Source: Tessaracoccus defluvii
GTDB taxonomy: Bacteria > Actinomycetota > Actinomycetes > Propionibacteriales > Propionibacteriaceae
Direction: 5' to 3'
DNA: 64,000 bases
NCBI RefSeq assembly: GCF_014489575.1
Contig: NZ_CP060789.1
Coordinates: 3,720,001 to 3,784,000 of the forward strand
The translations under genes and the position numbers were made by a program. Every line of letters starts with the position of its first letter. Position 1 is the stretch's first letter. The notes below the pieces were generated by a model. That model searched no databases and had not been told where the DNA came from. It worked only from the letters and a program-made list of their open reading frames with translations. Shown here one piece after another: positions 27,495 to 64,000 of the stretch.

Positions 27495-27842
27495 TCAGGA
27501 AGCTTCGGAGAGGCGTCGCACGACGTACTGGTTAAGGCTGAGGCGCTCTTCGGCAGCCTGGATCGCAAGCCGGCGATGCAGGCTTTCCCCGACCCGGAGA
27601 TTGAACTTGCCCGAGTAGCTCCGCTGAGAAAGAGGTTCGGGGAGGGCCTCACCCTCCGCCGTGAGATCGGCCAGGGTGTCGGCGACCAGGTCAACCATCC
27701 CCTTCAGGGCGGCCGATTGGGAGTCTGCGAGCCACGACAGCGACGGGAACTCCGCGCAGGTGGCGACGAACTCGCCATCTTCGACCGACCACGTCACCCG
27801 GTAGGTGTACCGGGACACGTCAACAGCCTGGGTCTGGGACAT
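27495..27842 (-). CDS. hicB: HicB-family antitoxin
   Basis: This 115-residue antitoxin neutralises the HicA RNase and represses the operon. The N-terminal half is the HicB-like RNase-H-type fold (YTYRVTWSVEDGEFVATCAEFPSLSWLADSQ) and the C-terminal part is a ribbon-helix-helix DNA-binding segment (GKFNLRVGESLHRRLAIQAAEERLSLNQYV). ATG 27842 is preceded by an in-frame GTG. It overlaps the end of hicA, and the pair sits between two 20-bp direct repeats. Confidence 0.9.
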   Translation of the reverse strand: MSQTQAVDVSRYTYRVTWSVEDGEFVATCAEFPSLSWLADSQSAALKGMVDLVADTLADLTAEGEALPEPLSQRSYSGKFNLRVGESLHRRLAIQAAEERLSLNQYVVRRLSEAS

Positions 27843-28077
27843 CACTTCGCCTCCTTCTTATCGATCGCGGCCAGCACCTGTCGCACCTGATAAGCCTTGG
27901 CCCGGCCGTTGCTGTTCTGGATGTTCACCCGGGGTCGCCGGGCCAGGGGGTCTTGAACACCGCGTGCGACCCGCCGGCTCTGCGAGCCGGACCGAAGAAG
28001 TGTTCGCAGACCTTGTGGAGGTCGTCGTATCGCACGTTCTGCGGGTTGCTCCGCATCGCTGCTACAAGCATGTCCAC
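27842..28077 (-). pseudogene. hicA: HicA-family toxin, frame broken by one base
   Basis: The first part, starting at about GTG 28077 or ATG 28071, reads LVAAMRSNPQNVRYDDLHKV and RRAGGSHAVFKTPW, with the catalytic-type His of HicA toxins (GGSH). The frame then hits TGA after GDPG. A second frame gives the rest (RVNIQNSNGRAKAYQVRQVL) and overlaps hicB. Adding one C to the four-base run at 27931-27934 joins both parts into a normal HicA of about 78 residues. This is either a toxin-inactivating mutation, which would leave an orphan antitoxin, or a base-calling error. Confidence 0.82.
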
Positions 28078-28153
28078 GGCCACCACTCCAATATGGTACC
28101 ACCAGCAGTACCATCAGCGAAGCACCCGTCACGACCTTCCCAATCGCAACCAG

Positions 28154-28173
28154 CGCGGCAGATCCGGATGTTC
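28154..28173 (+). repeat. 20-bp direct repeat, copy 2, flanking hicAB
   Basis: Exact copy of 27464-27483. A downstream CTCTGCCGG at 28183 can pair with GCGGCAGA, so this copy could form a small stem. Confidence 0.85.
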
Positions 28174-28301
28174 GACACCCTCTGCCGGCCTGCTCGGAGC
28201 CGCAAGCGTGTCACTGCGTCAGTCTGTGCCAAAGGCGGATGCGCCGTCATGTGGGAGCGCGCAGCGCCGGTTTCTCGGAGCACGTCTTGCCACTACTCGT
28301 G

Positions 28302-28862
28302 TCACGCGCCCCAAGGCCAGTTCAGCGAGGGGGCAACTTCGGACGGGATGGGAATATGATCCACATCCCTTGCCCCGACGAGGCGCTTAAGCAAGCGCAT
28401 TCGGCTCTTCTCAGTTGACGACACTGCGCCCTTGCGAACCTCGGCCAGGGGCCACCATTTCAACGCACCGGAATCCCCCGCAACAACGAGGACAGGCACG
28501 TAACCCTCAGCCAGCGGAATCATGCGCTCTCCCGACGACGCCCAGCCAGCCGCCACAATTCGATCGAAACGAACGAAACCCCGTCGTGTGAGGACGCCCC
28601 GGGACGTTACCACGACCGCGAAGGGCCACCCGGAAAGCCAAGCGAAGACACCCGCGGCCACGCTGAGGGCCGCAGTCACCCAATCGAGTCCTTCGACGAT
28701 AAGGAGGCCCACCACGCAGGCAACCGCCAGCCAGCCCACAAAGGCGGCAGACCCCCAGCCCAGCACGACACCGGGTCGCGTCACGCCACGCAACGGTCCC
28801 GTTGCAGCGCGTCGCGCCGTGGATACCTCATGCAGCCATTCGTCTGGAGAGATCAACGCCAC
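28302..28862 (-). CDS. membrane protein with bacterial PH-like domain
   Basis: A 186-residue protein with two hydrophobic segments (about 35-55 and 60-80) followed by a beta-rich stretch (VVVTSRGVLTRRGFVRFDRI, PVLVVAGDSGALKWWPL) of the type seen in bacterial PH (bPH2-like) domains. GTG 28862 is the first plausible start. It lies between two of the short repeats described for this region. Its role is unknown. Confidence 0.6.
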   Translation of the reverse strand: MALISPDEWLHEVSTARRAATGPLRGVTRPGVVLGWGSAAFVGWLAVACVVGLLIVEGLDWVTAALSVAAGVFAWLSGWPFAVVVTSRGVLTRRGFVRFDRIVAAGWASSGERMIPLAEGYVPVLVVAGDSGALKWWPLAEVRKGAVSSTEKSRMRLLKRLVGARDVDHIPIPSEVAPSLNWPWGA

Positions 28863-29044
28863 TTGGACACCCTATCCATCGGTCAGATCGGATCAGAAGC
28901 ACACGAGATGAGAGACGAACGGGTCGCCTACTGAATCCAGGCGTGCCGGGTACCCCGAGGTCCACAACGACGTGCTGGCCTCTACCAGCAGTGGCGCTGA
29001 GTCTCTACTCGGGGAACCGAAGCCGAAGGCTACCCTCGCACACC

Positions 29045-29059
29045 GCGGCAGATGAGTGC
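29045..29059 (+). repeat. GCGGCAGA-type intergenic repeat, copy 3
   Basis: GCGGCAGATGAGTGC here is repeated exactly at 30145-30159. It shares the GCGGCAGA core with the hicAB-flanking repeats. A nearby CTGCC about 20 nt downstream could pair with GGCAG. Confidence 0.75.
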
Positions 29060-29111
29060 CTTTGCAGTTGCTGCCAAAGTGGTGCGCTCGACGCATGCCA
29101 CACTGCTATGT

Positions 29112-29378
29112 ATGGCGAACACACGAGCCGTAGCGCAGTTGGCCCTAGGCGGCTTCGGCGCCGCTCTCACTGCGTCAGGCGTCATCACCTTCGCAATGAC
29201 GGCACCGGGACCGGGCTCCTTCGGGTGGTTCGCCTACGCCCCTCTAGCGGACCAACCGTGGTCCACCACAATGGTGCTGCAGCCCGGACAAGTCTGGGGC
29301 TTAGCCCTGGTCTTCGCCGGCTCGCTCGTCGTGAGCGGAGTTGCCGGTTTTCAACTGGGGCTACGTCGTCGTCAGTGA
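29112..29378 (+). CDS. small two-helix membrane protein
   Basis: ATG 29112 is preferred over 29052 because the following residues (TRAVAQLALGGFGAALTASG) begin the first membrane helix directly. A second hydrophobic segment (VWGLALVFAGSLVVSGVAGF) ends in a basic tail (GLRRRQ). The protein has 88 residues. It precedes another small membrane protein on the same strand. No family is recognised. Confidence 0.55.
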   Translation: MANTRAVAQLALGGFGAALTASGVITFAMTAPGPGSFGWFAYAPLADQPWSTTMVLQPGQVWGLALVFAGSLVVSGVAGFQLGLRRRQ

Positions 29379-29441
29379 TCGCGAAAGGGCAGTCGCGACG
29401 GCAGCGTGGTGCGCGCGGCCGGCAGGTGAAGGAGTCCCAGG

Positions 29442-29636
29442 GTGATGCGATTCATCGTCGAGCTGATCGTCGGCGTCGCCCTGGCGGCGATCGTCACGGC
29501 GGCCATCATGGTCACGATGTTCTACTTCGGCCCGTGGGCCGATCCACCAGGGATGGACGAACTGTGGTGGCTGTTGGCGACCGCGGCGGTCCTGCTCGCG
29601 TCTGGACGATGGTGGGCACGCCGACGAGCTCCTTGA
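29442..29636 (+). CDS. small two-helix membrane protein, 64 residues
   Basis: Starts at the first of two adjacent Met codons at 29442, with CCCAGGG upstream as a weak binding site. Two membrane helices (VELIVGVALAAIVTAAIMV and WWLLATAAVLLASG) surround a short acidic loop. The end is basic. It may be transcribed with the preceding small membrane gene. Confidence 0.55.
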   Translation: MMRFIVELIVGVALAAIVTAAIMVTMFYFGPWADPPGMDELWWLLATAAVLLASGRWWARRRAP

Positions 29637-29660
29637 TTGACCGAGGGAACTCCACCCACC

Positions 29661-29674
29661 GCGGCAGAAGAGGA
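29661..29674 (+). repeat. GCGGCAGA-type intergenic repeat, copy 4
   Basis: CACCGCGGCAGAAGAGGACG spans this site; the core is GCGGCAGA followed by a GGACG-type end, similar to copy 5 at 29721. Confidence 0.6.
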
Positions 29675-29720
29675 CGTCCTGCTCGGGTGGAACCGAGCCG
29701 GCAAGATGCCTTCGCACGCC

Positions 29721-29735
29721 GCGGCAGAGGGGACG
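29721..29735 (+). repeat. GCGGCAGA-type intergenic repeat, copy 5
   Basis: GCGGCAGAGGGGACG lies 60 bp after copy 4 and shares its core and its GGACG end. It falls in the 3' gap between two convergent small genes. Confidence 0.6.
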
Positions 29736-29795
29736 CCGTGCCGGAAGCCATCCAGTCGGTCGCGGCATGACCGAGATGCGCCAATGCGGACAACA

Positions 29796-30104: not shown

Positions 30105-30137
30105 ACACGTCATTGTGTCGGAGCCTGCTCCAGACAC

Positions 30138-30546: not shown

Positions 30547-31842
30547 GTGCAGATCAGCTTCGATGACTTCTTCAAGGAGCCGGATGATGTCACGTTCGCA
30601 ACAAGGCGCCTGCCAAGCCGCATCTACATAAGTCGTACGTTCAAGATGGCTCACGGCATCGACCAAGGCGAGCCCGCGCGGTATATTCGCAAGGTTTTCG
30701 ACGAAGAGGTGACCCCTGATGAGGACGACTGGGACTGGACAAGCCAGGTGGTCTATGTGACCCCGGGCGGTCGAAAGCAGCTCACGCTCAACGTTGCGCG
30801 GTCGGCAGGTGCAGTACGCAAGATCCGGATCCAGGAAGTGCCAACGAATCCCGATGCCGACAAGCTGGAGCCGGTCCTCGAGCTCGACCGGGAGCAAGCC
30901 ATGCGCCTGATCGAGATGCTCAGGGCCATCGACTCGATCCCGATCGAAGGCGACACCACGGTTAGTAGGGTCGACGACCAGGTCCTGCGAGATCTGTTCT
31001 CCGATCCTGATGGCATCAACCGCGTCTACGCCAGTGATCCAGAGCGTTTTCGAGCCTTGATCGAGACGGACGCCGACGCACGCGACGTGGTGGCGCTGCA
31101 GCACCGTCGTGGCGTCGTGGAGACGATGCGTACATGGCTCGTTGACGATGCAGCCTTCGACGCAGCCAAGCAGGCCGAGGGTGGTCCTGAAGCCGCTTGG
31201 CAGCATCTGTTGGAGGAGAATCCATGGGTTCTCGGCGCGAGTCTTGGTGGCCAGTTATACACCTCGTGGAGTGAAGAAAAGCTCGAGCAGGTGGTTGCTG
31301 GTCGCCATATCGGCGGCGTGGGCAAGCGCACCGACGCACTGATGCGTACAGCAGGTGTGGTCAGGTCTATGGTCTTCGCCGAGATCAAGCACCACCGCAC
31401 CAACCTGCTGGCCAAGGAATACCGCCCCGGTTGCTGGCGTCCATCGGACGACCTCAGCGGTGCCGTCGTGCAGGTTCAGCAGACAGTCCACCTCGCCGTA
31501 CACACCCTGAGCGACTATCTACCCGACCAAGATGACGATGGCGCGATCCTTCCGTCCGGAACATTCTTGCTGCACCCCAGAAGCTTCGTGATCATCGGCT
31601 CATTGACCGAGCTAACAGGTAAATCGGGCGGTCCGATTCCTGACAAGGTCCGCAGCTTCGAGCTGTTCCGACGTAGCCTGCAGGAGCCGGAAATCATCAC
31701 GTTCGACGAACTCCTCGCCCGGGCCGAATGGCACGTGCAGATGGCCGAGAAGCAGGCTGAGTCTGTCGATGACGACGACGACATCCTCGGCTTTGAAGTC
31801 GATGAGAACGGCGTCATTCTCGACGACGACTGGCCGATCTGA
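30547..31842 (+). CDS. sduA: Shedu anti-phage nuclease (DUF4263)
   Basis: A 431-residue single-gene defence protein. The C-terminal half is DUF4263: LLEENPWVLGASLGGQLYTSW, then GKRTDALMRTAG (D about 262) and VFAEIKHHRTNLL (E279, K281), the PD-(D/E)XK residues of Shedu. The downstream FLLHPRSFVIIGSLTEL segment is also typical. The N-terminal 190 residues are the variable, probably regulatory domain seen in Shedu proteins. It starts at GTG 30547. The very acidic C-terminus (DDDDDILGFEVDENG) is unusual. Known Shedu proteins act as oligomeric nucleases that block phage; this one has all key residues. Confidence 0.88.
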   Translation: MQISFDDFFKEPDDVTFATRRLPSRIYISRTFKMAHGIDQGEPARYIRKVFDEEVTPDEDDWDWTSQVVYVTPGGRKQLTLNVARSAGAVRKIRIQEVPTNPDADKLEPVLELDREQAMRLIEMLRAIDSIPIEGDTTVSRVDDQVLRDLFSDPDGINRVYASDPERFRALIETDADARDVVALQHRRGVVETMRTWLVDDAAFDAAKQAEGGPEAAWQHLLEENPWVLGASLGGQLYTSWSEEKLEQVVAGRHIGGVGKRTDALMRTAGVVRSMVFAEIKHHRTNLLAKEYRPGCWRPSDDLSGAVVQVQQTVHLAVHTLSDYLPDQDDDGAILPSGTFLLHPRSFVIIGSLTELTGKSGGPIPDKVRSFELFRRSLQEPEIITFDELLARAEWHVQMAEKQAESVDDDDDILGFEVDENGVILDDDWPI

Positions 31843-31934
31843 CTCTCACTCCGAAACTCCATCGTGGGCACCATCTGCGGATCAGGGAGGCGTTACATCG
31901 CAGACCTGAGGAAATCCCTGGACAATGTAGTCGC

Positions 31935-33251: not shown

Positions 33252-33599
33252 ATGCAGCGCGAGATCCGCTGTGGCGGCGAGTTCGGGTTCGACGACGACC
33301 GCGTCCACGTCAGTTACTGGGCGGGGCGTGCCGTGCCGCAACTTCCACTGCTCAACTTCCAGCGCGAGAGGGGGGCTGCTGTGCCCATCGTCGAGGTCGA
33401 CCAGGAGGGCATGGCCGCGCATGACTCCCCGACAGGGGGTGCGACTGTCCGCGAAGCTGTGTGCCCTCTCGCGGACGTTCTCCTCATTGCCGAGGACCTC
33501 CTTCTGCAGGCCAGGAGGTTGGCCGATTCCGGCGCACCCACAGAGGCGGTTGAGGCGATCCTCAACGACATGACCGCCTTGCGGGAAGGCGGCAGCTGA
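33252..33599 (+). CDS. hypothetical protein upstream of ardC
   Basis: A 115-residue protein starting at ATG 33252 with a good GGGAGG site. It opens with a beta-rich stretch (EIRCGGEFGFDDDRVHVSYW) and ends in helices (VLLIAEDLLLQARRLADSG, AVEAILNDMTALREGG). It overlaps the ArdC gene by one base, so they are co-translated. No family is recognised. Confidence 0.7.
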   Translation: MQREIRCGGEFGFDDDRVHVSYWAGRAVPQLPLLNFQRERGAAVPIVEVDQEGMAAHDSPTGGATVREAVCPLADVLLIAEDLLLQARRLADSGAPTEAVEAILNDMTALREGGS

Positions 33600-34666
33600 T
33601 GGCCGGCTACGGCAGGCCCGTCAGTCAGGCGGAGCGGGCCGCAGCGGCGGAAGCCCGGCAGGCGACGCTGGACAAGCTCCACACCCAACTCAGTGAAGGC
33701 ACCCTCGCCCTCAACGATCCGCAGGCTTGGCAGGCCTGGCTGAAGTTCTCCAGCCAGTTCCACCGGTACTCGTTCGGGAACAGCCTGCTCATCATGCTCC
33801 AGGACCCCCAGGCGACCCACGTCGCCGGCTACCAGGCGTTCAAGGCCATGGGACGCCAGGTGCGCCGCGGGGAGACCGGCATCAAGGTCCTCGCTCCAAT
33901 CACCCGCCGCGAGCCCCGCCTCGACGCCGCCGGCCAACCGGTGCGCGACGACCGGGGCCGCGTTCTGCATCGGACCCAGGTTGTGGCGACCAAACCAGTC
34001 ACGGTGTTCGACGTCCGGCAGACCGACGGGCCCCCGCTGCCCGACCCCAAGATCGGCGAGGCCGTCCTCCTGACCGGACAAGCCCCCGCAGGGCTGTGGG
34101 ACCGACTGCAAGACCTCCTCGGAGAACGAGGATTCCACGTACATCGGGGCGCGGACCTGGGCGGCGCCAACGGCTATACCGACTTCGGCCAGCGGCTCGT
34201 GATGGTCCGTGACGACGTCGACGACGCCCAGGCCGTCAAGACCCTGGCCCACGAAACCGGGCACGTGCTCCTTCACCAGGACGAGGGCGGCCGCGACTGC
34301 CGCGGAGTCGTCGAAGTCGAAGCCGAGTCCGTCGCGTACATGGTCACGAGCGCCCACGGCCTCGACTCCAGCCAGTACACCTTCAACTACGTCGCCGGCT
34401 GGGCCTTGAACGCCGTGACCGAAGCCCGCGACCTGGCCGACATCCTCCGCAGCACCGGCCAACGCGTCATCGGCGCGGCCGACCTCATCCTCCAAGCCAC
34501 GCAGCCGACGCCCACCATTACCGACGGAGCGCTCGACGCCCTGGAGGCGGAGGTTCGAACCCAGGTCGACCCGGCCAGATGGGAAGTCGCGCCTGCCGTT
34601 GCCGAGCCACCCCCGCAGGTGTCACCCCCAAGTCGCGCCGTCCCAGCGCCCGCCTTGTCTCTCTGA
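33599..34666 (+). CDS. ardC: ArdC-type antirestriction protein
   Basis: A 355-residue protein of the ArdC group, which protects incoming element DNA from restriction. The N-terminal domain (KLHTQLSEGTLALNDPQAWQ, FHRYSFGNSLLIMLQDP, GIKVLAPITRREP) is the ssDNA-binding ArdC_N fold. The C-terminal half is a zinc-metallopeptidase-like domain with AHETGHVLLH (HExxH, about residue 217) and a downstream Glu-rich helix (VEVEAESVAYMV). Placement close to an excisionase-like gene at the island edge fits leading-region genes that are expressed first on entry. Confidence 0.9.
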   Translation: MAGYGRPVSQAERAAAAEARQATLDKLHTQLSEGTLALNDPQAWQAWLKFSSQFHRYSFGNSLLIMLQDPQATHVAGYQAFKAMGRQVRRGETGIKVLAPITRREPRLDAAGQPVRDDRGRVLHRTQVVATKPVTVFDVRQTDGPPLPDPKIGEAVLLTGQAPAGLWDRLQDLLGERGFHVHRGADLGGANGYTDFGQRLVMVRDDVDDAQAVKTLAHETGHVLLHQDEGGRDCRGVVEVEAESVAYMVTSAHGLDSSQYTFNYVAGWALNAVTEARDLADILRSTGQRVIGAADLILQATQPTPTITDGALDALEAEVRTQVDPARWEVAPAVAEPPPQVSPPSRAVPAPALSL

Positions 34667-34732
34667 CGAGGCGCCATCCGACGGTCACGCACCAACCCGA
34701 ACTTCCATCCCGACACCGAGAGGAGACTGGCC

Positions 34733-34990
34733 ATGTCGCTCCCTATCTCGCCCGCCTGGGGTCAACCCCTGCCCGAGTGGCTGTCATTGCAGCAGGCGGC
34801 CGCCGTGTACGGCGTGAGTGTCGATACGCTGCGGCGACGCATCGCCTCAGGGAGGCTCCGGGCGTCAAGGTTCGGCGTGAGGCTCATCCGGGTTCGCGTC
34901 GAGGATCTCGACAAGCTGTTCCGGCCCATCCCCACGGGCGATGACCTCACTGACCGACGGGCCCGCGCGCGCAATCAACGCACCTGGTAG
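34733..34990 (+). CDS. excisionase-like MerR/HTH_17 DNA-binding protein
   Basis: An 85-residue protein starting at ATG 34733 with GAGAGGAG upstream. The segment LSLQQAAAVYGVSVDTLRRRIASGRLRASRFGVRLIRVRVEDLD is the helix-turn-helix plus wing of HTH_17/excisionase proteins. It lies about 250 bp from the tRNA-Ser 3' end, where a tyrosine integrase would be expected, but no integrase gene is seen in the gap. It may be the directionality factor of the island. Confidence 0.82.
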   Translation: MSLPISPAWGQPLPEWLSLQQAAAVYGVSVDTLRRRIASGRLRASRFGVRLIRVRVEDLDKLFRPIPTGDDLTDRRARARNQRTW

Positions 34991-35014
34991 GAAGCCCACT
35001 GATCGTCCTCTTCG

Positions 35015-35042
35015 GCGCCGCGCACCTCATGGTGCGCGGCGC
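35015..35042 (+). terminator. 12-bp hairpin after the excisionase-like gene
   Basis: A perfect 12-bp GC-rich stem (GCGCCGCGCACC / GGTGCGCGGCGC) with loop TCAT lies 25 nt after the stop at 34990. There is no T-run, as is common in actinobacterial terminators. Confidence 0.6.
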
Positions 35043-35231: not shown

Positions 35232-35238
35232 GAGGTGG

Positions 35239-35323
35239 CGGAGGATACGAGATTCGAACTCGTGAGGGCGTGAACCCAACCCGCTTTCCAAGCGAGCGCC
35301 ATAGGCCTCTAGGCGAATCCTCC
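35239..35323 (-). tRNA. tRNA-Ser(GGA)
   Basis: The reverse strand folds as a class II tRNA with acceptor stem GGAGGAT / ATCCTCC, discriminator G, a long variable arm, TTCGAATC in the T loop and anticodon GGA within CTTGGAAAG. The 3' end faces the accessory half, so the island appears to be inserted at this tRNA. Confidence 0.93.
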
Positions 35324-44330: not shown

Positions 44331-45792
44331 TCAGGCGCCGGACGTGATCCGTCCTGCGCAGAGGGTCAGGCGGGTCGTCATGTCACGCAGCCGGGCAGCC
44401 TGCTCGGCGCTCGGGCCGGCGGCCAGGGGGTCGTCGCCCAGGAGGACCAGGTCGGCCGCGGCCCCCTCGATGATGCGGCCGCCGTCGACGGAGGCGCGCA
44501 GCGCCTGCAGCGGGGTCAGCGACTCTGCGGGGGTGAGCGCGAACCCACCCGGGTCGCCGCGGTGGACGGCGGCAGCGATGGCGAGCCACGGGTCGGCGGG
44601 GGCCACCGGCGCATCCGACCCCAGCACCACGTCGGCACCGCTGGCGAGCAGGGAACCGGCGAGGAACAGGCGGTCGGTCCGGTCGCCCCACAGGGTTTCG
44701 GCCGTGGTGCGGTCGTCGAGCAGGTGGGCCGGCTGCATGCTGGCCACCAGCCCAACGCGGCGAAGCGGGGGACGTCCGCGCGGCGCAGGAGCTGGGCGTG
44801 TTCGACGCTGCCCAGGCGCCGGTGGTGGCGAACGCGTCCAGCGCGGCTGCATTGGCCCGGTCGCCGATTGCGTGGACGGCGACGGCGAGGCCGCCGTCGG
44901 CGCTGCGGCGCAGCAGGGCGGTCAGCTCAGCGGCTGTCAGGTTGGGGGCGCCGTGTCTACCGTCGCCGAGGTACGGCTCGCAGCACCAGGCGGTGCGCGT
45001 CGACATGGAGCCGTCGCTGATCACCTTCAGCGGCCCCATCGTGGCGAGGCCGTCGCCGCCCGGCAGGGGGGCCCCGGTGCGGAGCCCTGCCGCGAGGACG
45101 TCGTCGAGCTGATGCGGGTAGACGGCGGTACGGACCCGGAGGGTCTTCAGCCCGGCGGCGATGCGGCGCGGCCAGTCGAGGTGGGCGTCGGTGAACTCGA
45201 AGTCGACGATGCCCGTCACGCCACGGGAGGCGAGGGTCGCCGCGGTGGCTGCCTCGGCGGCCGGGGCCGGTTGGCTGCCCGGCAGGGAACCGAGGCGGCC
45301 CATGATCGGGAACCAGTCGTCCTCTTCGAGCGGGCCGCTGCGCGGCGCCAGGCCGAACGCCCGCAGGGCGGCGCTGTTGAGCCACCCGTTGTGCGCATCG
45401 CCGGAGATCAGGACTGTCACCCGGTCCCCGGTGACGGCATCCAGCTCGACGACGGTGCCGGTGCGGGCCCAGCCGGCGGAGCGGTAGCCGAACCCGATCA
45501 GGGGCCCCGCAGCCGGCGGGGCGACGGCGACGCGTGCCGCGACAGCCTCCGGCCCCGGCAGCCCGGCGACATCCAGCCAGGTGCTGGAGCGGACGAGCTG
45601 ACCGAAGTGGAGGTGCTTGTCCCACAGCCCGGGGATCAGCCAGCCGCCACGACCGTCGAGGATACGCTCGCCGGCCGCCTCCAGGTCGGGGCCCACCTCG
45701 ACGATCACGCCGTCGCGGATCCGCACGTCGGCGGGCGGGGACCCACCGCGGTCCAGGTCGACGACGCGGGCGCCGCGGAGCAGGAACGTCAT
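44331..45792 (-). pseudogene. amidohydrolase (YtcJ-like, Amidohydro_3) with two 1-nt frame breaks
   Basis: Starting at ATG 45792, the frame has the metal-binding LIPGLWDKHLHFGQL, then VTGIVDFEFTDAHLDWP and VAVHAIGDRANAAALDAF. It then breaks near 44815 into GSVEHAQLLRRADVPRFAALG in another frame, and again near 44750 into LVASMQPAHLLDD and GSDAPVAPADPWLAIA. Adding one base at each point restores a normal protein of about 486 residues. The ATG overlaps the stop of the MFS gene, so they form an operon. Both breaks lie next to CTGG, so base-calling error is possible. Confidence 0.85.
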
Positions 45793-46970
45793 CGGGCCGG
45801 CCGGTCGCGCGGCGGGGCGAGCGCAGGGGAGGTGGCGAGCGCCAGGACCACCGCGATCGGGATGAGGATCAGCGCCCACCGGATTCCCGCCTGCTGGCCG
45901 ACCAGTCCGATGAGGGCGGGGCCGGCGAGGAAGCCGATCCGCATCAGCCAGGTCACGAAGGTCAGCCCGTTGCCGTGCGCCATGCCAGGCAGCTCGTCGG
46001 CGGCGTGCATCGCCATCGGGATGGCGGTCGCGATGCCCCAGCCGGCGCACGCGAACGCGAGGATCGTCAGCCACGGCGAGGGGAAGGCGATCGCGAGCCC
46101 CATGGCGAGGCCCGCGACGGCGACGCCCTGCGCCACGGCGGCGCGGGCGCCGATCCGGTTGGTGAGTGAGTCGCCCGTGAACCGTCCGATCATCTGGGCG
46201 CCCTGCAGGCCGACGAAGGCCATGCCGGCCACGAACGGAGAGGAGCCGAACAGCTGCTCCATGTAGACCGCGCCCCACGAGGCGCCGGACTCCTCGATGA
46301 GGCCGACGGAGGCGCCGAGCAGCCCCAGCGCGATCAGCCGGGGGAGCCAGCGCAGGGGGATGCCGCGCCCGGCGGGGGCGGCATCGTCGGCGGCGGGAAC
46401 GGTGTCGGCGCCGGGGAGCATCAAGGTGCGCGTGTACAAGGCAACTGCGGTGTAGGCGGCCAGGGTGACGAGCGCCTGGATGCCGATGGGCAGCCCCAGC
46501 TCGCCGGCGATGGCGCCGAGAAGCCCGCCACAGACGGCGCCGACGGACCACCAGCCGTGGAACCCGTTGAGGATCGAGCGGCCGAGCAGCCGCTGGACGC
46601 GCAGGCCGTGCGCGTTCATGGAGATGTCCATCAGCGCGTCGAGCGCCGACATGAGCAGCAGCCCGATGGCGAACACCGTCCAGTGCGGCGCGTTGGCGTA
46701 GATGTTGAGGACGGCCGCGCTCAGGATGCCGGTGACGACGGCGACGTTGGCGGAGGCGAAACGGCGGATGAGCCGCGCGGTGAACAGGCCTGCGATCAGG
46801 CCGCCGATCGGGCCCAGCCCGACAACGAGACCCCAGGACAGCTCGTCCAGCCCCAGCGCCGCTTTGAGCTCCGGGTAGCGGGGGACCAGCGAGGAGAAAC
46901 CGACGCCGTTCAGCCAGAACAGCAGGGTGACGCCCCAGCGGGCACGCAGGACGGCGCGGTCGGTGGCCAT
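45789..46970 (-). CDS. major facilitator superfamily transporter
   Basis: A 393-residue membrane protein with 12 predicted helices. It starts at ATG 46970 (RARWGVTLLFWLNGVGFSSLVPRYPELKAALGL), contains the loop 2-3 MFS pattern GGLIAGLFTARLIRRF, and shows the duplicated 6+6 layout around residue 190. It belongs to the YbjJ-like group of putative efflux or sugar transporters. Substrate is unknown. It is co-transcribed with the downstream amidohydrolase (4-bp overlap). Confidence 0.9.
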   Translation of the reverse strand: MATDRAVLRARWGVTLLFWLNGVGFSSLVPRYPELKAALGLDELSWGLVVGLGPIGGLIAGLFTARLIRRFASANVAVVTGILSAAVLNIYANAPHWTVFAIGLLLMSALDALMDISMNAHGLRVQRLLGRSILNGFHGWWSVGAVCGGLLGAIAGELGLPIGIQALVTLAAYTAVALYTRTLMLPGADTVPAADDAAPAGRGIPLRWLPRLIALGLLGASVGLIEESGASWGAVYMEQLFGSSPFVAGMAFVGLQGAQMIGRFTGDSLTNRIGARAAVAQGVAVAGLAMGLAIAFPSPWLTILAFACAGWGIATAIPMAMHAADELPGMAHGNGLTFVTWLMRIGFLAGPALIGLVGQQAGIRWALILIPIAVVLALATSPALAPPRDRPAR

Positions 46971-47426: not shown

Positions 47427-49310
47427 CTAGTCGATGTGCACCCCCTCGGTCTGCTGGCCGCTGAGCGCCGTCTCGAGTTGGAGCAGTTCGTCGACCAGGC
47501 CGCGGGGCAGCCGCCAGCCGAAGGTGTCGAACCAGCGGCCGATGCGCGGCACCTCGTCGCGCCACTCCGCCTCCTGGAACGACGTGACCTCGGCCAGGTC
47601 AGCGTCGGTGATGTCGAGCCCGTCGACGTCGAGCGCCCCCGGGGCCGGGAGATGGCCGATGGGCGTCTCGACCGCGTCGCCTCCGCCGTCGATCCTCTCG
47701 GCGATCCACTTCAGCACGCGGCTGTTCTCCCCGAACCCGGGCCACATGAACCGGCCGTCGGCGTCGCGGCGGAACCAGTTGACGTAGAAGATCGAGGGCA
47801 ACTTGTCCGCCTCAGCGCGTTCCCCGAGATCCAGCCAGTGTTGTACGTAGTCGGCGACGTGGTAGCCGATGAACGGCAGCATCGCCATCGGGTCGCGCCG
47901 GAGCACGCCGACCGCGCCGCGGGCGGCCGCCGTCGACTCTGAGGAGCAGGTCGCCCCCATGAACACGCCGTGGCGCCAGTCGCGCGACTGGGTCACGAGC
48001 GGGACGGTGTTCTCGCGGCGCCCGCCGAAGATGATGGCGTCGAGCGGAACGCCCCGCGGGTCGTCGTACTCGGCCGCGAGCGTCGGAGCCTGGTGGATCG
48101 GCGTGCAGAAGCGGCTGTTGGGATGGGCGGCCTTCTCACCGGGACGCCCGCCGACAGGGCCCGTCTCGGCATTCCACAGCCGACCCTTCCAGTCGGTGAG
48201 CGGGCCCGGCGGCGTCGCCGTCATACCCTCCCACCAGACGCCGCCGTCGGCGGTTTCGGCCACGTTGGTGAAGATGGAGTTGCCGATCTCGATGGCGCGC
48301 ATGGCGTTGGGGTTGGTGGAGTGGCTGGTGCCGGGGGCGACGCCGAAGAAGCCGGTCTCCGGATTGGTCGCGTACAGCCGTCCGTCGTCACCGAAGCGAA
48401 GCCAGGCGATGTCGTCGCCGATCGTCTCCACCTTCCAGCCGGGGATGGTGGGTTCGAGCATCGCCAGGTTCGTCTTCCCGCAGGCGGACGGGAACGCGGC
48501 GGCCATGTGGTAGCTGCGGCCCTCGGGCGAGGTGAGCTTGATGATGAGCATGTGCTCGGCCAGCCACCCCTCGTCACGGGCCATCACGGAGGCGATGCGC
48601 AGGGCGTAACACTTCTTCCCGAGCAGCGAGTTGCCGCCGTAGCCGGAGCCGTACGACCAGACCATGCGCTCGTCGGGGAAGTGGACGATGTACTTGATGT
48701 CGCTGCACGGCCAGGGCACGTCGGCCCTGCTGTCCGTGAGGGGCATGCCGACGGAGTGCAGGCAGGGCACGAAGTCGACGCCGGTCGCCAGCGCCGCCGT
48801 CACCTCGGCGCCCATCCGGGTCATCACGCCCATCGACATCGCGACGTAGGCGGAATCGGTGACCTCCACACCGAACTTCGGATCGTCGGCCTCCAGATGC
48901 CCCATGCAGAACGGCACCACGTACATGGTGCGGCCTTCCATGGAGCCGTCGTAGAGGCCCGTCAGGATCCTCTTCATCTGGTCGGGATCCATCCAGTTGT
49001 TGGTGGGGCCGGCGTGACGTTCGTCGCGCGAACAGATGAACGTCTGGTCCTCGACGCGGGCGACGTCGTCCGGGTCGGTGCGGGCCAGGAACGAGTTCGG
49101 CAGGATGTCGTCGTTGAGGCGGATCAGCGTGCCAGCGTCGAGCAGCCGTTGCGCGAGCAGGGCCTGCTCCTCCGGGGAACCGTCGCAGTAGTGGATCGCG
49201 GCCGGTCGGCAGAGCGCCACCACCTCCGCCAGCCAGTTCAGCAGCTTCTCGTTGGTGGGCAGGGTGCCCTGCAGGGGCAGGTCCCGCAGGATCGACAGGT
49301 CGGACGCCAT
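47427..49310 (-). CDS. pckG: phosphoenolpyruvate carboxykinase (GTP)
   Basis: A 627-residue gluconeogenic enzyme converting oxaloacetate and GTP to PEP, CO2 and GDP. It has the kinase-1 P-loop [15 protein letters not shown] (about residue 275), [14 protein letters not shown], the [14 protein letters not shown] segment and the metal site DDIAWLRF. Length and motifs are normal for GTP-dependent enzymes. ATG 49310 has GGAG upstream. It precedes the glutaredoxin gene. Confidence 0.97.
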
Positions 49311-56341: not shown

Positions 56342-56795
56342 CAGGCCTCGACGACGAGTTCGACCTCGACGGGCGAGCCCAGAGGCAGTTCCGCGACGCC
56401 GACGGCGCTGCGCACGTGCACGCCCGCATCGCCGAACACCTCCTGCAGCAGCAGGGAGGCCCCGTTGGCGACGGCGGGCTGGCCGGTGAATCCGGGGGCG
56501 CTGGCGACGTAGACCACGACCCGCAGCACGCGGCCGATGGCGTCGATACCGCCCGCCACCTGGGCTGCGGCGGCGACGGCGTTGAGGGCGGCGACGCGGG
56601 CGGCCGCGGCGGCATCCTCGGGTGACACGTCAGCGCCGACCTTGCCGGTCACCGTCAGCGACCCGGCCACGAACGGCAGCTGCCCGGAGGTCCACACCTG
56701 GGTGCCGACACGGGTGGCCGGCACATAGGCGGCGACAGGAACCGCCACCGGGGCAGCTCGAGGCCGAGCCCGGCGAGGTTCGCGGACGCCGTCAT
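56341..56795 (-). pseudogene. ridA: RidA-family protein, frame broken by one base
   Basis: The C-terminal 135 residues are a normal RidA/YjgF fold (VGTQVWTSGQLPFVAG, LNAVAAAAQVAGGIDAIGRV, VYVASAPGFTGQP, ARSAVGVAELPLGSPVEVE). The natural start, ATG 56795, reads TASANLAGLGLELP, the expected N-terminus, but the frame shifts after four Cs at 56750-56753. Adding one C joins both parts. The ATG overlaps the DUF4177 stop (TGATG), which supports it. RidA proteins deaminate reactive enamines and imines. Confidence 0.85.
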
Positions 56796-56953: not shown

Positions 56954-56985
56954 GGGGTAAGCCTGCCAGTTCGGCGGGCGGGCGG

Positions 56986-57482
56986 CTACTGCGGTCCGAA
57001 GGTCCTGCGGAGCTGCGCTTCGGTGGCTTCCGGCGCAACGACGACGGCCTTGTCGGCGGGCCGGGCGACGACGGCGTCCACGACCGCGTCGAGCGTGGCC
57101 TTGGCCTCTGCGATGGTCGCCTCAGGCTTCTTCACCTGCTTGAACTTGCCGAGGCCGAAGGTGACCAGGACAGCCGCCACGAGCAGCGAGAACACCACGC
57201 TCACCAGGAAGCCGAGGGTGAACGAGCCCCACGGGCCCATCGGCGTCAGGGAGTGCAGCAGCAGCCCCACGGCGAGCGCGACAAGGATCACGAGCATCCA
57301 CAGCGCATGGAAGGCGAAGACGGCGGCGCCGGCGAAGAAGGCCGTTCCCATGCCGGCAGCCTTCGCCGCGGGCTTCAGTTCGGCGGCGGCGAGTTCGGAC
57401 TCGACGGCGACGAAGTCGGACAGAGCGTCCTTGATCTCCACTAGGGGTGCTGTTGCTCGGACTGCTTCGGTTGCTGCGACAT
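56986..57482 (-). CDS. Holin-X-like (phage holin superfamily III) membrane protein with N-terminal frame break
   Basis: The readable 151-residue part has two membrane helices (FFAGAAVFAFHALWMLVILV and LGFLVSVVFSLLVAAVLV) and charged ends, as in the actinobacterial Holin-X family; the family name does not imply lysis. The natural start is ATG 57482 with GAGGAG 4 nt upstream, giving SQQPKQSEQQHP, but four Cs at 57444-57447 lead to TAG. One more C joins it to LVEIKDALSDFVAVE. Without it, a start inside the gene would be needed. Confidence 0.8.
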
Positions 57483-57539
57483 GGTGCTCCTCTCGCGTCG
57501 TTCAGCCTAACGCCAACGGGCGCCAGGCGTAGCGCCGGG

Positions 57540-58282
57540 TCACAGGGGAATGGCCAGGGCGTTGTCCGGCATGCGCACCGGACCGGTCAGTTCGTCGTGG
57601 TTGACCCAGGCCCGCTGGCACAACATCTGGAACGGCAGCCGCAGGCTCTCGCCGGGCCGGACGGCGCCGTCGTACAGTTCGCCGACCTGTCCGAGGAGGT
57701 GGCGGAGTTGTCCCTGGTCCAGGTTCGCGGCCAGCGGCTGTGAGGTGACGAGGCCCAACAGGTCGTCGCGGGTCACCTTCTGCCACACGCGGAACGCGCG
57801 CTGTTCGACCTCGGTGAAGTAGCGGCTGTTGCGCAACTCGTCGAGGCTGCCGTGACCGTAGGCACCCCTCATCGCCATCGGATCGAAGCGGCGCAGCAGC
57901 GCAGCGAGCCGCCTCACCCAGGGCACCGTGTCGTCACGGACGAGGTAGGAGGCGCTGAGGCAGCCGCCGGGGCGCAGGGCGCGGGCGACCTGGGGGAGGG
58001 CCAGGCCCAGGTCGAGCGTGTGCAGCCCCTGGTGGATGAAGACCACTTCGAACTGGAAGGGATCGGTGGGGATGGCCTCCGGGCGGGCGATCACGGGGTG
58101 ACGCCGTCGATGGAACCCAGCCGGACGGCCAACGGCGCGTCGTCGGTGAGGGCGAAGATCGTGTGCCCCGCGGATCGGAGTCGACGCGTCAGGTGCGCGT
58201 CCTGCGCCACCACCAGCCCACGCACCTCACGCCAGACCGCCAGCCAGTCAAGGGCTTCGGTGGGCAGTGTCGCGCGGCTCAT
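57540..58282 (-). pseudogene. class I SAM-dependent methyltransferase, frame broken by one base
   Basis: ATG 58282 begins SRATLPTEALDWLAVWREVR and AGHTIFALTDDAPLAVRLG, then stops at TGA after GVTP. The rest (VIARPEAIPTDPFQFEVVFI, ALPQVARALRPGGCLSASYL) is in the next frame. Adding one C to the four-base run at 58095-58098 joins them into a 247-residue methyltransferase. The usual glycine-rich motif I is weak (GLVVAQDAHLT), so SAM binding is uncertain. The substrate is unknown. Confidence 0.75.
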
Positions 58283-58428
58283 GTGGTCCTTCCGGGTGGG
58301 GCGTCGGCCCCTAGGTTAGCCCGCCCGAAGCCCCCCTCGAGGGAGCCTGTGGGCGCGCCGCGGCCCCGGCCGTCCACAGGTCCGCACACACGTGGGTGCT
58401 GCGGCTCGTGGCGACCCACAACGGGGGC

Positions 58429-59436
58429 ATGGAAGCAGACACGCAACCCCATGCGCTCCTGTGCGCCCGGGATCCCCGGGTCATCGAGGCCGTCGAGGTG
58501 AGCGCGGCCGCGCTGGCGGTCGACCTGGTCGTGGTGCACGACGCGGAGGCCGCGGCGGAGGCCTGGCCCCGTGCTGCCCTCCGCCTGGTCGGGGCCGACG
58601 TGGCTGCCCGCTGGGCGGGGCTGCCCGGGTCCGGAGGTCATGTCACCGGCACCGATGCGGTGGAGCTGGCCCGTTGCTCGGCGCGGCTCGGGGTGCCGGT
58701 GGTCCCGCTGCCCGACGAGGCGGGCCGTCTCGCCGCGCTGCTCACCGCGGTGGCCGGCGCCGACCGGGGCGACGCCACGGTCGTGGCAGTGGCGGCAGGT
58801 TCGGGCGGGCTGGGCGCCTCCACCCTGGTGGCCGGGCTGGTGCTCGCCGCGGCCCGCCGGGGTCGCAGGGCAGCCGCCGTCGACCTCGATCCTGCGGGAG
58901 GGGGCCTCGATCTCGTCGTCGGAGCAGAGGCGGTGCCCGGGTACCGCTGGAGCGACCTGGCGAAGGCGCGGGGGGAGCTGGGGGAGATCTGGGAATCCCT
59001 GCCCCGCGTCGGGGGTGCCGCGTTCCTCGCCGTCTCCCGCGAGGCGCCCGGTGCGCCGCCCCAGGCAGCCGTCGACGCTGTGCTGGGCGCCCTGCGTCGG
59101 GTCTGCGACCTCGTGGTCATCGACGCGGGCAGCACGCCCCTGGACGGGGAGCGGCACCTCCTGTTGGTCGGCTCCGACGTCCGTTCCATCGCGGCGGCGC
59201 AGATGCGGGCCGACTCCGTGCCCCGGGCCCCGGTCGGGGCGATCCTGCGCACGGGCCGTGGGCGTGGGATTCCCCCTGCGATGGCGGCGCGGTCGCTCGG
59301 CCTCGGGCTGGTCGGGGTGCTCCGCGATGACCGCACGCTGCCCCGCCTCGCCGAGTTGGGGCTGCCGCCGTCGGGCCTCGGCTCCCGACGGTTCTCCCGC
59401 GACGTGACCAGGATCGAGGCTGCGCTCCATGGTTGA
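58429..59436 (+). CDS. ssd: Ssd/CpaE-like MinD-type ATPase, Tad locus
   Basis: A 335-residue protein of the septum-site-determining (Ssd)/TadZ group. The N-terminal receiver-like part (HALLCARDPRVIEAVEVSAA) precedes a deviant Walker A (AAGSGGLGASTLVAGLVL) and AVDLDPAGGGLDLVVG. It lacks the usual lysine-rich P-loop, as is common in this family. ATG 58429 is close to a GGGGG site. It overlaps tadA and is thought to place the Tad apparatus in the cell. Confidence 0.9.
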   Translation: MEADTQPHALLCARDPRVIEAVEVSAAALAVDLVVVHDAEAAAEAWPRAALRLVGADVAARWAGLPGSGGHVTGTDAVELARCSARLGVPVVPLPDEAGRLAALLTAVAGADRGDATVVAVAAGSGGLGASTLVAGLVLAAARRGRRAAAVDLDPAGGGLDLVVGAEAVPGYRWSDLAKARGELGEIWESLPRVGGAAFLAVSREAPGAPPQAAVDAVLGALRRVCDLVVIDAGSTPLDGERHLLLVGSDVRSIAAAQMRADSVPRAPVGAILRTGRGRGIPPAMAARSLGLGLVGVLRDDRTLPRLAELGLPPSGLGSRRFSRDVTRIEAALHG

Positions 59437-60565
59437 CCTGCTCGACGGGCTCCGCACAGCTCTCGCTGGGCTGGGGCGGCCCCACACCGCCGCCGACGTG
59501 GCCAGGGCCATGCGTGAACTCGGAGCCGTCGTCACCGACGCGACGGTCGGTGACGCGCTCGAGGCGCTCCGGCGGAACTCCGTCGGGGCCGGCCCCCTGG
59601 AGGACCTCCTGAACGGGCCGGGGGTCTCCGATGTGCTTGTCAACGGCCCTCTGGACGTGTTCGTCGATCGTGGTGTGGGCCCCGAGCGGGTGCCGCTGAC
59701 GTTCCCGGACGACGAGGCCGTCCGGCAGTTGGCGATCCGGCTCGCGGCCGCCTGCGGACGGAGGCTGGATGACGCGCAGCCGTTCGTCGACGGCCGTCTG
59801 CCCAGCGGCGTGCGGGTCCATGCGGTCCTCGCGCCGGTGGCCGAGCCGGGCACCTGCATTTCGCTGCGGGTCCCCGCCCGTCGCTCCTTCTCGCTCGACG
59901 ACCTCGTGGCCGCAGGGTCGCTCTCCGACGAGGGGGCCTCCCTCCTGCGCGGCCTGGTCTCGCAGCGGGTGCCGTACCTGGTCAGCGGCGGCACAGGGTC
60001 CGGCAAGACCACGCTGCTCGCCGCACTGCTGGGCCTCGTGCCCGAGGCGGAGCGGATCGTGCTCGTGGAGGACGCCCGGGAACTGGTGCCCGCCCACCCC
60101 CACTGCGTCCGACTGGAGGGGCGCCCGGCCAACGCGGAAGGGGCCGGCGCCATCACGCTCACCACCCTGGTGCGGCAGGCGCTGCGGATGAGGCCCGACA
60201 GGCTGGTTCTGGGCGAGGTCCGTGGCGCAGAGATCACCGACATGCTGTCGGCGTTGAACACAGGCCACGAAGGTGGCTGCGCCACCGTGCACGCCAACTC
60301 GGTGGCCGACGTGCCCGCCCGGCTGGAGGCGCTGGCTGCGCTCGGCGGACTGGGGAGGGAGGCCTGTCACGCGCAGGTCGTGGCCGCACTCAGGGTGGTG
60401 GTGCACGTGCGCCGCGACGCGGCGGGGCGACGCTACGTCGAGCAGGTGGGCGTCATCCGCCGGAGCTCCGCAGGGCTCGAGGTGATTCTCGGGGCCGCTC
60501 TCCACACCGACGGCATCACCTACGGGGCGGCGGGGGCCGAGTTGAGAGCCCTGGTGGCACCGTGA
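59429..60565 (+). CDS. tadA: TadA/CpaF-type secretion ATPase
   Basis: A 378-residue hexameric ATPase of the tight-adherence (Flp pilus) system. The N-terminal domain (LEDLLNGPGVSDVLVNGPLD) is typical of the TadA family. Walker A is VSGGTGSGKTTLL at about 188, the Asp box RIVLVEDARELVP, Walker B LVLGEVRGAE and the His box GHEGGCATVHANS follow. It overlaps ssd and tadB. Confidence 0.95.
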   Translation: MVDLLDGLRTALAGLGRPHTAADVARAMRELGAVVTDATVGDALEALRRNSVGAGPLEDLLNGPGVSDVLVNGPLDVFVDRGVGPERVPLTFPDDEAVRQLAIRLAAACGRRLDDAQPFVDGRLPSGVRVHAVLAPVAEPGTCISLRVPARRSFSLDDLVAAGSLSDEGASLLRGLVSQRVPYLVSGGTGSGKTTLLAALLGLVPEAERIVLVEDARELVPAHPHCVRLEGRPANAEGAGAITLTTLVRQALRMRPDRLVLGEVRGAEITDMLSALNTGHEGGCATVHANSVADVPARLEALAALGGLGREACHAQVVAALRVVVHVRRDAAGRRYVEQVGVIRRSSAGLEVILGAALHTDGITYGAAGAELRALVAP

Positions 60566-61361
60566 TCGCCGTGGTCCTGACCGCCACGGCGATGCTGCTG
60601 CTCGTGAGCCCGCCGCCGGGGGCCGCGCTCCGCCGCCTCGCCGTGGAGCGCCAGCGCGACGGCCACCGGGTGGCCTCGCGGCGCTGGTGGGCGCTGCCGG
60701 CGCTCGGGGCCGGGGGCTCGTCGCCACCTGGATGCTCGCAGGCACCCGCGCGGTCGGCTGGGTGCTGATCGTCGGCATCGTGACGGGGACGGTCGCCCAC
60801 CTCGTGCGGGGCCGGGCCCAACGCCGTGCGGCCGTCAGGAGGTCGAGGGACACCGCCCGCGCGGCGCGGCTGTTGGCGGGGCTGCTCGGGTCCGGCCAAC
60901 TCCCCGTCTCCGCACTGGCGGAGGCCGCCGAGGAGTCTCCCGCGCTGCGGGGCGCCGCGATGGCGGCACGGCTCGGGGCGGATGTCCCCGCTGCGCTCCG
61001 CGCCGCGGCCCGCAGCCCCGGGCAGGAGGGCCTGGCGACCATTGCCGCCGCATGGCAGGTCAGCGCACGCAGCGGCGCCCCGATCGCAGACGTGCTGGCC
61101 GGCGTGGCGGAGGCGCTCAGGGCGGAGGAGCGGCTGCAGTCGAGCATCGACGCCGAACTGGCGGCCGCGCGCTCCAGCGGCAAGATCATGGCGGGGCTCC
61201 CTCTCGGGGCGGCGGGGCTCGGCCTGATGGTGGGCGTGGACTCGCTCGGGTTTCTGCTGGGGAGCGGGTGGGGTCAGCTCGCCCTCGGCCTCGGCGTGGC
61301 ACTCACCGCGGTCGGCGTCCTGTGGATCGACCGGCTGGCACGGCCACGGAGGCCGGCATGA
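60562..61361 (+). pseudogene. tadB: TadB-like pilus assembly membrane protein, frame broken by one base
   Basis: GTG 60562 begins IAVVLTATAMLLLVSPPPG, a membrane helix, and runs to WWALPALGAG. After five Gs at 60712-60716 the frame is wrong; one more G joins it to LVATWMLAGTRAVGWVLIVG and the T2SSF domain (VSALAEAAEESPALRGAAMA ... IMAGLPLGAAGLGLMVGVD). The whole protein would be about 266 residues. It overlaps tadA and tadC. The break may be a sequencing error, since the flanking genes are intact. Confidence 0.85.
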
Positions 61362-61948
61362 GCCCGGTGTGGTGGGCCGCCTGCCTGGCAGCACTGGCCG
61401 TGGCGCTCCTGGTCCCGCATCCTGCGGGCGACCTGCGCAGGCTGCGACCGGAGGGTGCCCGGCCCCGCCTGCTGCGGCGGGTCGCCCGGCTCCGCCGTCC
61501 GAACCCGGCGACCCGGGGCGGCGAAGTGGCCGATGCGCTCGGCTTCCTGGCGGTGTGCCTGGACGCCGGGCTGCCGATGGTGCGCGCGCTCAGCATCGTG
61601 GCGGACGCGTCCGCGCCGGCCACCTCCGCCGTCCTGCGGCGCCTCAGTTCGGAGCTCACGCTGGGCCGCAGAACGGACGAGGCCTGGGGCGCCCTGCGCG
61701 GCGACCCGGTCTGGGGTGCGGCCGCCGCAGACGTCGCGCGCGCGGAACGCTCGGGGCTCTGTCTGGCCGACCTGCTGCGGCTGCACGCCGACGACGCCCG
61801 CCGGGTGGCGGCCGACCGCGCGACGCTCGCGGCCCGCACGGTCGGGGTGCGGTCCGTCGTCCCCCTGATGGTGTGCTTCCTGCCCGCGTTCATCCTGGTC
61901 GGCGTGGTGCCCATCGTCGCGGGGCTCGTGGCTGACTTCATGGGCTGA
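61358..61948 (+). CDS. tadC: TadC-like pilus assembly membrane protein
   Basis: A 196-residue T2SSF-domain protein starting at ATG 61358 (ATGA overlap with tadB). An N-terminal helix (WWAACLAALAVALLVPHPAG), a soluble part (LGFLAVCLDAGLPMVRALSI) and C-terminal helices (VVPLMVCFLPAFILVGVVPI) match TadC. In other Actinobacteria Flp pilin and TadE genes follow; here only 51 bp separate it from the helicase. Confidence 0.92.
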   Translation: MSPVWWAACLAALAVALLVPHPAGDLRRLRPEGARPRLLRRVARLRRPNPATRGGEVADALGFLAVCLDAGLPMVRALSIVADASAPATSAVLRRLSSELTLGRRTDEAWGALRGDPVWGAAAADVARAERSGLCLADLLRLHADDARRVAADRATLAARTVGVRSVVPLMVCFLPAFILVGVVPIVAGLVADFMG

Positions 61949-61999
61949 AAGCCGGGTGCCGGTTGGGGTTGTGTCGGTGGGCGCTGGCACAGTGGGGGA

Positions 62000-64000
62000 G
62001 TGGGATTCGACTGGGTGCTGGCGCGCGACGAGGTCGCGGCGACCCGGCACCGCGAGCGGCGGCCGGGGACGACGGCGGCGTGGCCGCAGTGGCTCTCCGC
62101 GGAGGCCGTGGACCGCCTCCGGGAGGCCGGCTACCCCGAGCCGTGGCGTCACCAGGTCGAGGTCGCGGAGTCCCTGTTCCGCGGCACCCACACGGCTGTC
62201 TGCACACCGACCGGCTCCGGTAAGACCCTCGGGTACCTGCTGCCCATCATCGCGGCCACCACGGAGGGCACCGTCGGGTTCACTCCCGACACCCACCGCA
62301 CCATGCTGACGCGCGCCCGACACACCGCCCTCTACATCTCGCCGACGAAGGCGTTGGCACACGACCAGGCCCGCGCGGCGGCCGCGCTGGGCCCGTCCGG
62401 GTGGAGGATCAGCGCCCTCGACGGCGACTCCGACGCCACCGAGCGGGCGTTCGCCCGTGACCACGCCAGCTTCATCCTCACCAACCCCGACATGCTCCAC
62501 TACTCGGTGCTGCCCAACCACCGGCGATGGTCGGGATTCCTCGGCTCGCTGCGCTACATCGTCATCGACGAGGCGCACCGATACCAGGGCCTGTTCGGGG
62601 CCCACATCGCCAACGTCGTGCGGCGCCTGCGCCGCCTGGCGGCCGCCTACGGAGCGGAACCGGTCGTGGCGCTGTCCTCGGCCACCGCCCCAACGCGGCC
62701 GAGTTCGGGGGCCTGCTGATCGGGGAGGACGCCGTCTCCGTCGTCGCCGAGGACACCTCGCCGGCCGGTCCCCGGACGGTGGCGCTGTGGCGGCCGCAGC
62801 AGTCGCTGCGCTCCGACACCGCCGAACTCCTGGCGGGTCTCAGCGACGACGGCTGCCAGACCCTCGCGTTCGTGCCGTCGCGGCTCGGGGCGGAGCTCGT
62901 CTCCCTGCAGGCGCAGGAACTGGCCCACGACCCTTCACGGATCGCCTCCTACCGGGGTGGGTACCTCGCCGTCGACCGCCGTGAACTCGAGGCCGGCCTG
63001 CACGACGGTCGCCTGCGGGGCCTCGCCAGCACCAACGCCCTCGAGCTGGGGGTGGACATCGCCGGCATGGACGCGGTCCTCGTCTCCGGCTATCCCGGCA
63101 AGCTGTCGTCGTTCTGGCAGCAGGCCGGTCGGGCAGGGCGCCGTGGCCAGGATGCCCTGGTGGTGCTCCTAGCGAACGACAACCCCCTCGACGCCTACCT
63201 CATGGAACACCCCGAGCTTGTCTTCGACGCGCCCGTCGAGCGGGCCGTCCTGCACCCCGCCAACCCGCGGGTCCTCGGCCTCCACCTGGCAGCAGCCGCG
63301 CAGGAACTGCCCCTGACCGCCGACGATGTCCGCTGGTTCGGGGAGACCACGCCCGGTGCGCTGGCGGCGCTCGCAACGCAGGGCGTGCTCCGCGACAGGG
63401 GTGGCCGCTACTTCTGGACCAGACACGACCGTGCCGTCGATTTCATCGATCTCCGCTCGGTGGGGCAACGGCCACTCGACATCGTCGAGCGCGACACCGG
63501 ACGGGTCGTCGGCATCGTCGACGCGGAGGCCGCGGACCGCACGGTGCATCCCGGCGCCGTCTACCTGCATCAGGGCGAGTCGTTCGTCGTCGACGCGCTG
63601 GTTCCCGAGGAGCATCATGCGCTCGTCGTGGCCGCCACGCCCACCTACTACACCCAGCCGCAGGCGGCCTTCGACATCGAAATCGTCCGGGAGACGACGC
63701 ACCGGCCACTCGGCATCACCCAGGTGTGCACGGGCGACGTGCGCCTGGCCTCGCAGGTCCACGGCTACCTGCGCCGTGACGAGGTCACCCACGAGGTGTG
63801 GGACTCGACGCCGCTGGAGCTGCCGCTGCACAGGATGGTGACCCAGGCCGTGTGGTGGACGGTGCCGGCCGCACTGGCCGCCCGCCTCGGCTGGCAGCCG
63901 CTGGAGCTGGGGGCTGCGGCGCACGCGATGGAACACACCGCGATCGGGCTGCTGCCGGCGTTCGCCCCCTGCGACCGCTGGGACATCGGCGGGGTCAGCA
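62000..64000 (+). CDS. DEAD/DEAH-box helicase (DUF1998/YprA-like), 3' partial, frame broken once
   Basis: GTG 62000 begins a large superfamily 2 helicase of the actinobacterial type found next to the Tad locus. The Q-like region is PWRHQVEVAESLF, motif I is CTPTGSGKTLGYL (about 70), motif II is VIDEAHRYQG (about 190), and motif III is SSAT. After four Cs at 62688-62691 the frame shifts and stops at 62719; one more C restores NAAEFGGLLIGEDAV and the rest, including LGVDIAGMDAVLV and QQAGRAGRRGQ (motif VI). It then runs open to the window end. It probably acts in DNA repair. Confidence 0.88.

Follow-up and report, generated by a model that had tools for sequence, protein, structure and literature searches.

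One-base frame breaks across the Tessaracoccus defluvii genome sequence are most probably consensus errors at short G/C runs

Uncorrected errors of nanopore assemblies are mainly homopolymer insertions and deletions (indels), which cause frameshifts and inflated pseudogene counts; 151-5298 pseudogenes are given for R9.4 genomes processed with Racon and Medaka, and some polishers raise the number of deletions, according to the part of that report drawn on here (PMC8011154). A second report, in the portion used here, describes gene-fragmenting long-read errors that are mostly false deletions, commonest after runs of 4-5 equal bases, and that were detected through relatives (PMC12007338). Here we analyse eight one-base frame breaks in seven genes of a 64,000-nucleotide window (bases 3,720,001-3,784,000) of the single-contig genome of Tessaracoccus defluvii (3,864,792 bases; completeness score 98.21%, contamination score 4.19%), coded G000 below, together with breaks elsewhere in that genome. 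Comparison with related sequences indicates that these breaks are almost certainly consensus errors of a long-read-type assembly and not biology. Set beside the passages on nanopore-only assemblies (PMC8011154), the likeness lies in frame-shifting homopolymer indels, on a platform that is presumed here, and about 600 breaks in 3.86 Mb would fall within the range of 151-5298, although breaks and pseudogenes are different counts. Whereas the genome described in the relevant part of the second report had more A/T-run errors (PMC12007338), the breaks of G000 are enriched near G/C runs, and A/T runs of 5 or more are few in this sequence (69% GC in the 400 kb measured). A literature search on complete nanopore genomes of Tessaracoccus returned no paper whose title concerned such a genome.

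Frame breaks were counted in two independent ways. The first used a frame model trained only on long open frames of G000 and of three comparators (G003, G019 and G020), in which a strict break is a frame change on the same strand with both frames open well beyond the change. Sixty spread 20-kb stretches of G000 (1.2 Mb) held 81 strict breaks, 77 of the missing-base type and 4 of the extra-base type, a count that is a lower bound since breaks whose upstream frame soon stops are dropped. At least one break was present in 45 of the 60 stretches, and the number per 20 kb (mean 1.35, variance 1.62) was near Poisson. For comparison, 160 kb was sampled from each of five genomes of the same genus. Strict breaks numbered 1 in G003, 0 in G005, 9 in G019 and 1 in G020; the fifth genome, G008 (3.6 Mb in 2 contigs, 60% complete), had 71, at a density of 44 per 100 kb versus 6.8 in G000.

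The second count relied on homology, using tblastn with proteins from relatives (40 relatives were searched, 24 of them in the same genus). It yielded 23 frame junctions in 134.7 kb of aligned G000 sequence, with 22 of the 23 clusters missing-type by majority label; in two rows the best alignment carries the extra-type sign, and two rows in stretch L128 cover a single gene region from opposite strands, and one of them may therefore be spurious. No junction was found in 79.0 kb pooled from four comparators (G003 14.1, G005 20.3, G019 17.4 and G020 27.2 kb), against 13.5 predicted from the G000 rate. The rate in G000, 17 per 100 kb (95% limits 10.8-25.6), compares with about 155 per 100 kb in G008 (49 junctions in 31.7 kb aligned). 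Assuming 90% coding sequence, the G000 genome as a whole would hold about 594 breaks (376-891). G008 is a heavily under-called assembly, and it resembles G000 in its bias towards the missing type (60 of 71 strict breaks) as well as in the run-length profile around its breaks. It differs in that breaks are about 7-9 times denser, completeness is low and runs of 6 are nearly gone (0.013 per kb).

The breaks are associated with short runs of G or C. At six of the eight window sites the longest run within 10 nucleotides of the predicted position is 4 or 5, as originally claimed, and at both sites of the amidohydrolase gene it is 3; a run of at least 4 lies within the same distance of 19.3% of control positions, so that six or more of eight sites would arise by chance with P of about 0.001. 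Across the sampled stretches, the longest run within 12 nucleotides was 4 at 49% of strict breaks in G000 and equally at 49% in G008, against 14% of controls in each. Among homology junctions, the run test used those placed to 60 nucleotides or better (19 of 23 in G000, 41 of 49 in G008), and 13 of the 19 in G000 had a run of at least 4 where 5.1 were expected. In a check for a methylation-like motif, the words enriched near breaks, counted together with flanks at a looser margin (88 missing-type breaks), came mostly from G/C runs and the bases beside them (CCCCG, CGCCCC), and such a motif was rejected; a few others, such as CAGAGC and AGCAGC, were weakly enriched.

If the breaks were decay, they should follow relaxed selection, and the break rate by conservation class runs the opposite way: 24.5 per 100 kb for genes with at least 80% identity, 14.7 at 65-80% and 10.6 at 50-65% (11, 9 and 3 breaks, respectively), with the caveat that breaks are easier to detect in conserved genes. 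In-frame stops were almost absent. Seven were counted in 38,237 homologous codons of G000; a later listing gave eight rows, only one of which lies where the alignment is good (22 of 25 residues). The comparators had 3 in 4,752 codons (G019), 1 in 7,862 (G008) and none in the others. The breaks also reach genes that a cell should need. MetG and TopA are essential proteins. The only copy of metG lies in two frames, each under the family cut-off, with 87% identity to an intact relative before the break and 86% after it, and is whole in three comparators; the only copy of topA lies in three frames at 81-82% identity. leuS is split too, and a second, distant leuS is present. The search for topA was made because the gene was already broken in the homology count, and metG came up by chance. 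Of the two 23S rRNA copies, one is a base short in a G run, the base being present in the other copy and in all seven comparator copies; five further gap columns, common to both G000 copies and in variable stretches, were left uncounted, and this single case proves little. We therefore read the breaks as error and not decay, because indispensable genes are affected, conserved genes are not spared, in-frame stops are nearly absent and the spread is near Poisson. The original prediction had likewise held real decay of so many neighbouring conserved genes to be unlikely, and had proposed systematic under-calling of G/C runs; both views are supported, the latter by breaks that are one-directional, run-associated, genome-wide and present in single-copy genes, with a profile matching that of G008.

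Within the window, each of the eight sites was read in three frames and the pieces were then compared with homologues. The seven genes are as follows.

27845..28071, minus strand: hicA, HicA-type mRNA interferase of a toxin-antitoxin pair; frame change near 27925-27940
44334..45813, minus strand: amidohydrolase-family gene with two breaks, between 44860 and 44812 and near 44753-44759
56344..56795, minus strand: ridA, RidA/YjgF family (PF14588, PF01042); frame change near 56745-56755
56989..57482, minus strand: Holin-X-like membrane protein gene (PF07332); frame change near 57441-57450
57540..58282, minus strand: methyltransferase-like gene; frame change near 58093-58100
60562..61361, plus strand: tadB-like gene of the Tad pilus cluster; frame change between about 60663 and 60714
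62000..64000, plus strand: DEAD/DEAH-box helicase gene, continuing past the window end; frame change near 62687-62697

All eight breaks that had been predicted in these seven genes are present at or near the positions first proposed. In the three-frame reading, judged by eye, the protein continues in another frame at every site and the shift is that of one missing base, in agreement with the claim that one added base restores each gene; in relatives the genes run in a single frame. The strict frame model made only two calls in the whole window (the tadB-like gene at 60671, and the amidohydrolase pair as one break of opposite sign). The model is too insensitive to confirm most window sites by itself; homology was therefore added and carries the site check.

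The two pieces of hicA, searched separately, match adjoining stretches of single frames (CP157007.1, NZ_CP104345.1), the short C-terminal piece with E values of 5e-4 and 2e-3; some of the matching plasmid records are annotated as toxin HicA and others as hypothetical or not at all, and neither short piece matched a Pfam family. The amidohydrolase aligns with a single 73-residue stretch of a G005 homologue in three frames, one after another (residues 1-20, 37-56 and 55-70 of that stretch), and the gene therefore has two breaks. They had been placed at 44750 and 44815; the pair stands, but the first break along the gene can be located only between 44812 and 44860. The outer pieces match PF07969 (Amidohydro_3) at 2-298 and 325-471, and one query protein also gave a junction. 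The N-terminal stretch of ridA that is out of frame here resembles, by eye, in-frame residues of relatives, and similar first residues of the Holin-X-like protein are in frame in four of six listed relatives, also by eye. The methyltransferase junction was found in 9 alignments and that of the helicase in 13, with 16 and 40 query proteins, respectively, in a separate listing, where several junctions from antisense frames of relatives were disregarded. The methyltransferase orthologues are 247 residues long and in a single frame, the Pfam methyltransferase matches of the gene itself being under the gathering cut-off. The helicase N-terminal piece matches PF00270, and the helicase orthologues, like those of the methyltransferase, hold, in one frame, stretches resembling those that are out of frame here. 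The C-terminal piece of the tadB-like gene matches PF00482 (T2SSF); its relatives have a single frame, with N-terminal residues that by eye resemble those out of frame here.

We next weigh biological readings of the same breaks. The short G/C runs may really have lost one base each, in an organism that lacks indel repair, has a broken nucS and carries genes that are decaying or phase-varying, a reading we consider very improbable. The gene for NucS, the actinobacterial mismatch-repair nuclease, does lie in two frames (G000:C1:985313-985674, outside the window) and is unbroken in all three comparators examined. In the part of the source used here, NucS of Mycobacterium smegmatis leaves 1-2 bp indels unrepaired, a result that the authors connect with phase variation at homopolymer tracts; the same text, however, has nucS loss raising transitions and the indel result independent of nucS (PMC11551767). 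The simpler and probable account of the split nucS is that it belongs to the same set of errors. A cell should not survive breaks in single-copy metG and topA, and the direction is nearly all loss (77 of 81). Moreover, the most conserved genes show no lower rate, accompanying in-frame stops are almost lacking, and for slippage, runs of just 4-5 bases are on the short side. A bolder version keeps the broken nucS and the lack of indel repair, with hundreds of real one-base losses at G/C runs of 4-5 bases, even in metG and topA, and lets the cell survive through transcriptional or ribosomal slippage at these runs that yields some full-length protein; we find it less probable still. Programmed or tolerated frameshifting, which would give full proteins from the split genes, is hardly credible. 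G or C runs can be slippery, and a repeated gene changes frame in the same way at each of three places (L119 15397, L128 5031 and L128 15661), where it is probably an insertion sequence element with programmed frameshifting; but the affected genes are unrelated to one another and are single-frame in relatives, so that the split arrangement is not conserved.

Decay confined to the window, for example around a mobile element, seems just as far-fetched. The hicAB pair does lie in a stretch that looks mobile, its genes including ArdC-like, Shedu-like and small helix-turn-helix ones, and the five breaks within 6 kb that had been singled out are present, with P of 0.0026 for one fixed 6-kb stretch. 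Over some 640 such stretches, however, one or two clusters of five would be expected, and the count of the whole span is not special, the genome-wide rate predicting 5.4 breaks where 8 are seen (P 0.17). Both the strict count and the homology count found breaks at a similar rate elsewhere in the genome. The remaining variant stays within the reading of the breaks as errors and takes a share of it, without excluding it: the bases could have been lost on another platform or at another step, such as older PacBio reads or run-shortening polishing, and not in nanopore base-calling. We regard this as possible though the less likely source. In PacBio circular consensus sequencing, too, most errors are homopolymer indels, and some polishers add deletions, as the relevant parts of two reports state (PMC12007338, PMC8011154), but nothing in the present data separates the platforms.

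Several observations weigh against consensus error as the explanation. That the breaks are errors is itself something we infer. Among the families examined, rpoC, alaS, dnaE and ileS are whole, and the completeness score means that most genes are intact. G019 had nine strict breaks (stretches L145-L148 and L205-L208), seven of them extra-type, unlike the other genomes, and its two 23S rRNA copies differ by 2 gap columns. G005 and G008 lay outside the training of the frame model, which may affect their counts. Not all breaks sit at longer runs, 31 of the 88 missing-type breaks having no G/C run of at least 4 within 15 nucleotides. Finally, in run-length spectra measured on 400 kb of G000 and 80 kb of each other genome, runs of 6 were not depleted in G000 (0.172 per kb, versus 0.11-0.40 in G003, G005, G019 and G020); therefore only a small share of runs can be affected.

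Under the preferred explanation by consensus error, a small fraction of the short G/C runs would have been called one base too short, and polishing would have left these shortened runs unrepaired. Each lost base would then shift the frame and split a gene that the cell itself probably carries unbroken. We infer homopolymer base-calling as the cause, with a nanopore-like platform.

Three intact genes adjoin the broken ones in the window.

27498..27845, minus strand: hicB, intact partner of hicA (PF05534 HicB, E 2e-17)
58396-59436, plus strand: CbiA/MinD-like ATPase, open frame (PF01656)
59429-60565, plus strand: TadA-like ATPase, open frame (PF00437)

The nearest named relatives of the TadA-like ATPase are from Tessaracoccus and other Propionibacteriaceae. 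Between hicAB and the mobile-looking stretch, one open frame at 30547-31839 encodes a protein that has the C-terminal domain of SduA, a Shedu protein (PF14082, E 1.8e-30). Further along, an ArdC-like anti-restriction gene lies at 33599-34987 and a small helix-turn-helix gene stands beside a tRNA-Ser (35236-35323), an arrangement that suggests an element integrated at the tRNA. The tRNA-Ser was considered as a damaged tRNA and on checking looks ordinary; a second copy of its 3' end was not found within the window at up to 3 mismatches, and no tRNA-Ser of the same anticodon was found in the relatives' loci. Two genes for phosphoenolpyruvate carboxykinase (GTP) were also seen, one intact at 47427-49310 and one with a frame junction in L128 near 12395.

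To conclude, these results carry a quality warning: calls of gene absence, pseudogenes and gene splits in G000 are not trustworthy, and this includes any apparent loss of Tad pilus, HicA, NucS, TopA or MetG function. It had been argued that, if the breaks are errors, the Tad and helicase genes are functional; this does not follow, their apparent breaks being simply no evidence against function. The contamination score, too, may come partly from split marker genes. A single-contig assembly scored at 98% completeness can still hold several hundred false frame breaks.

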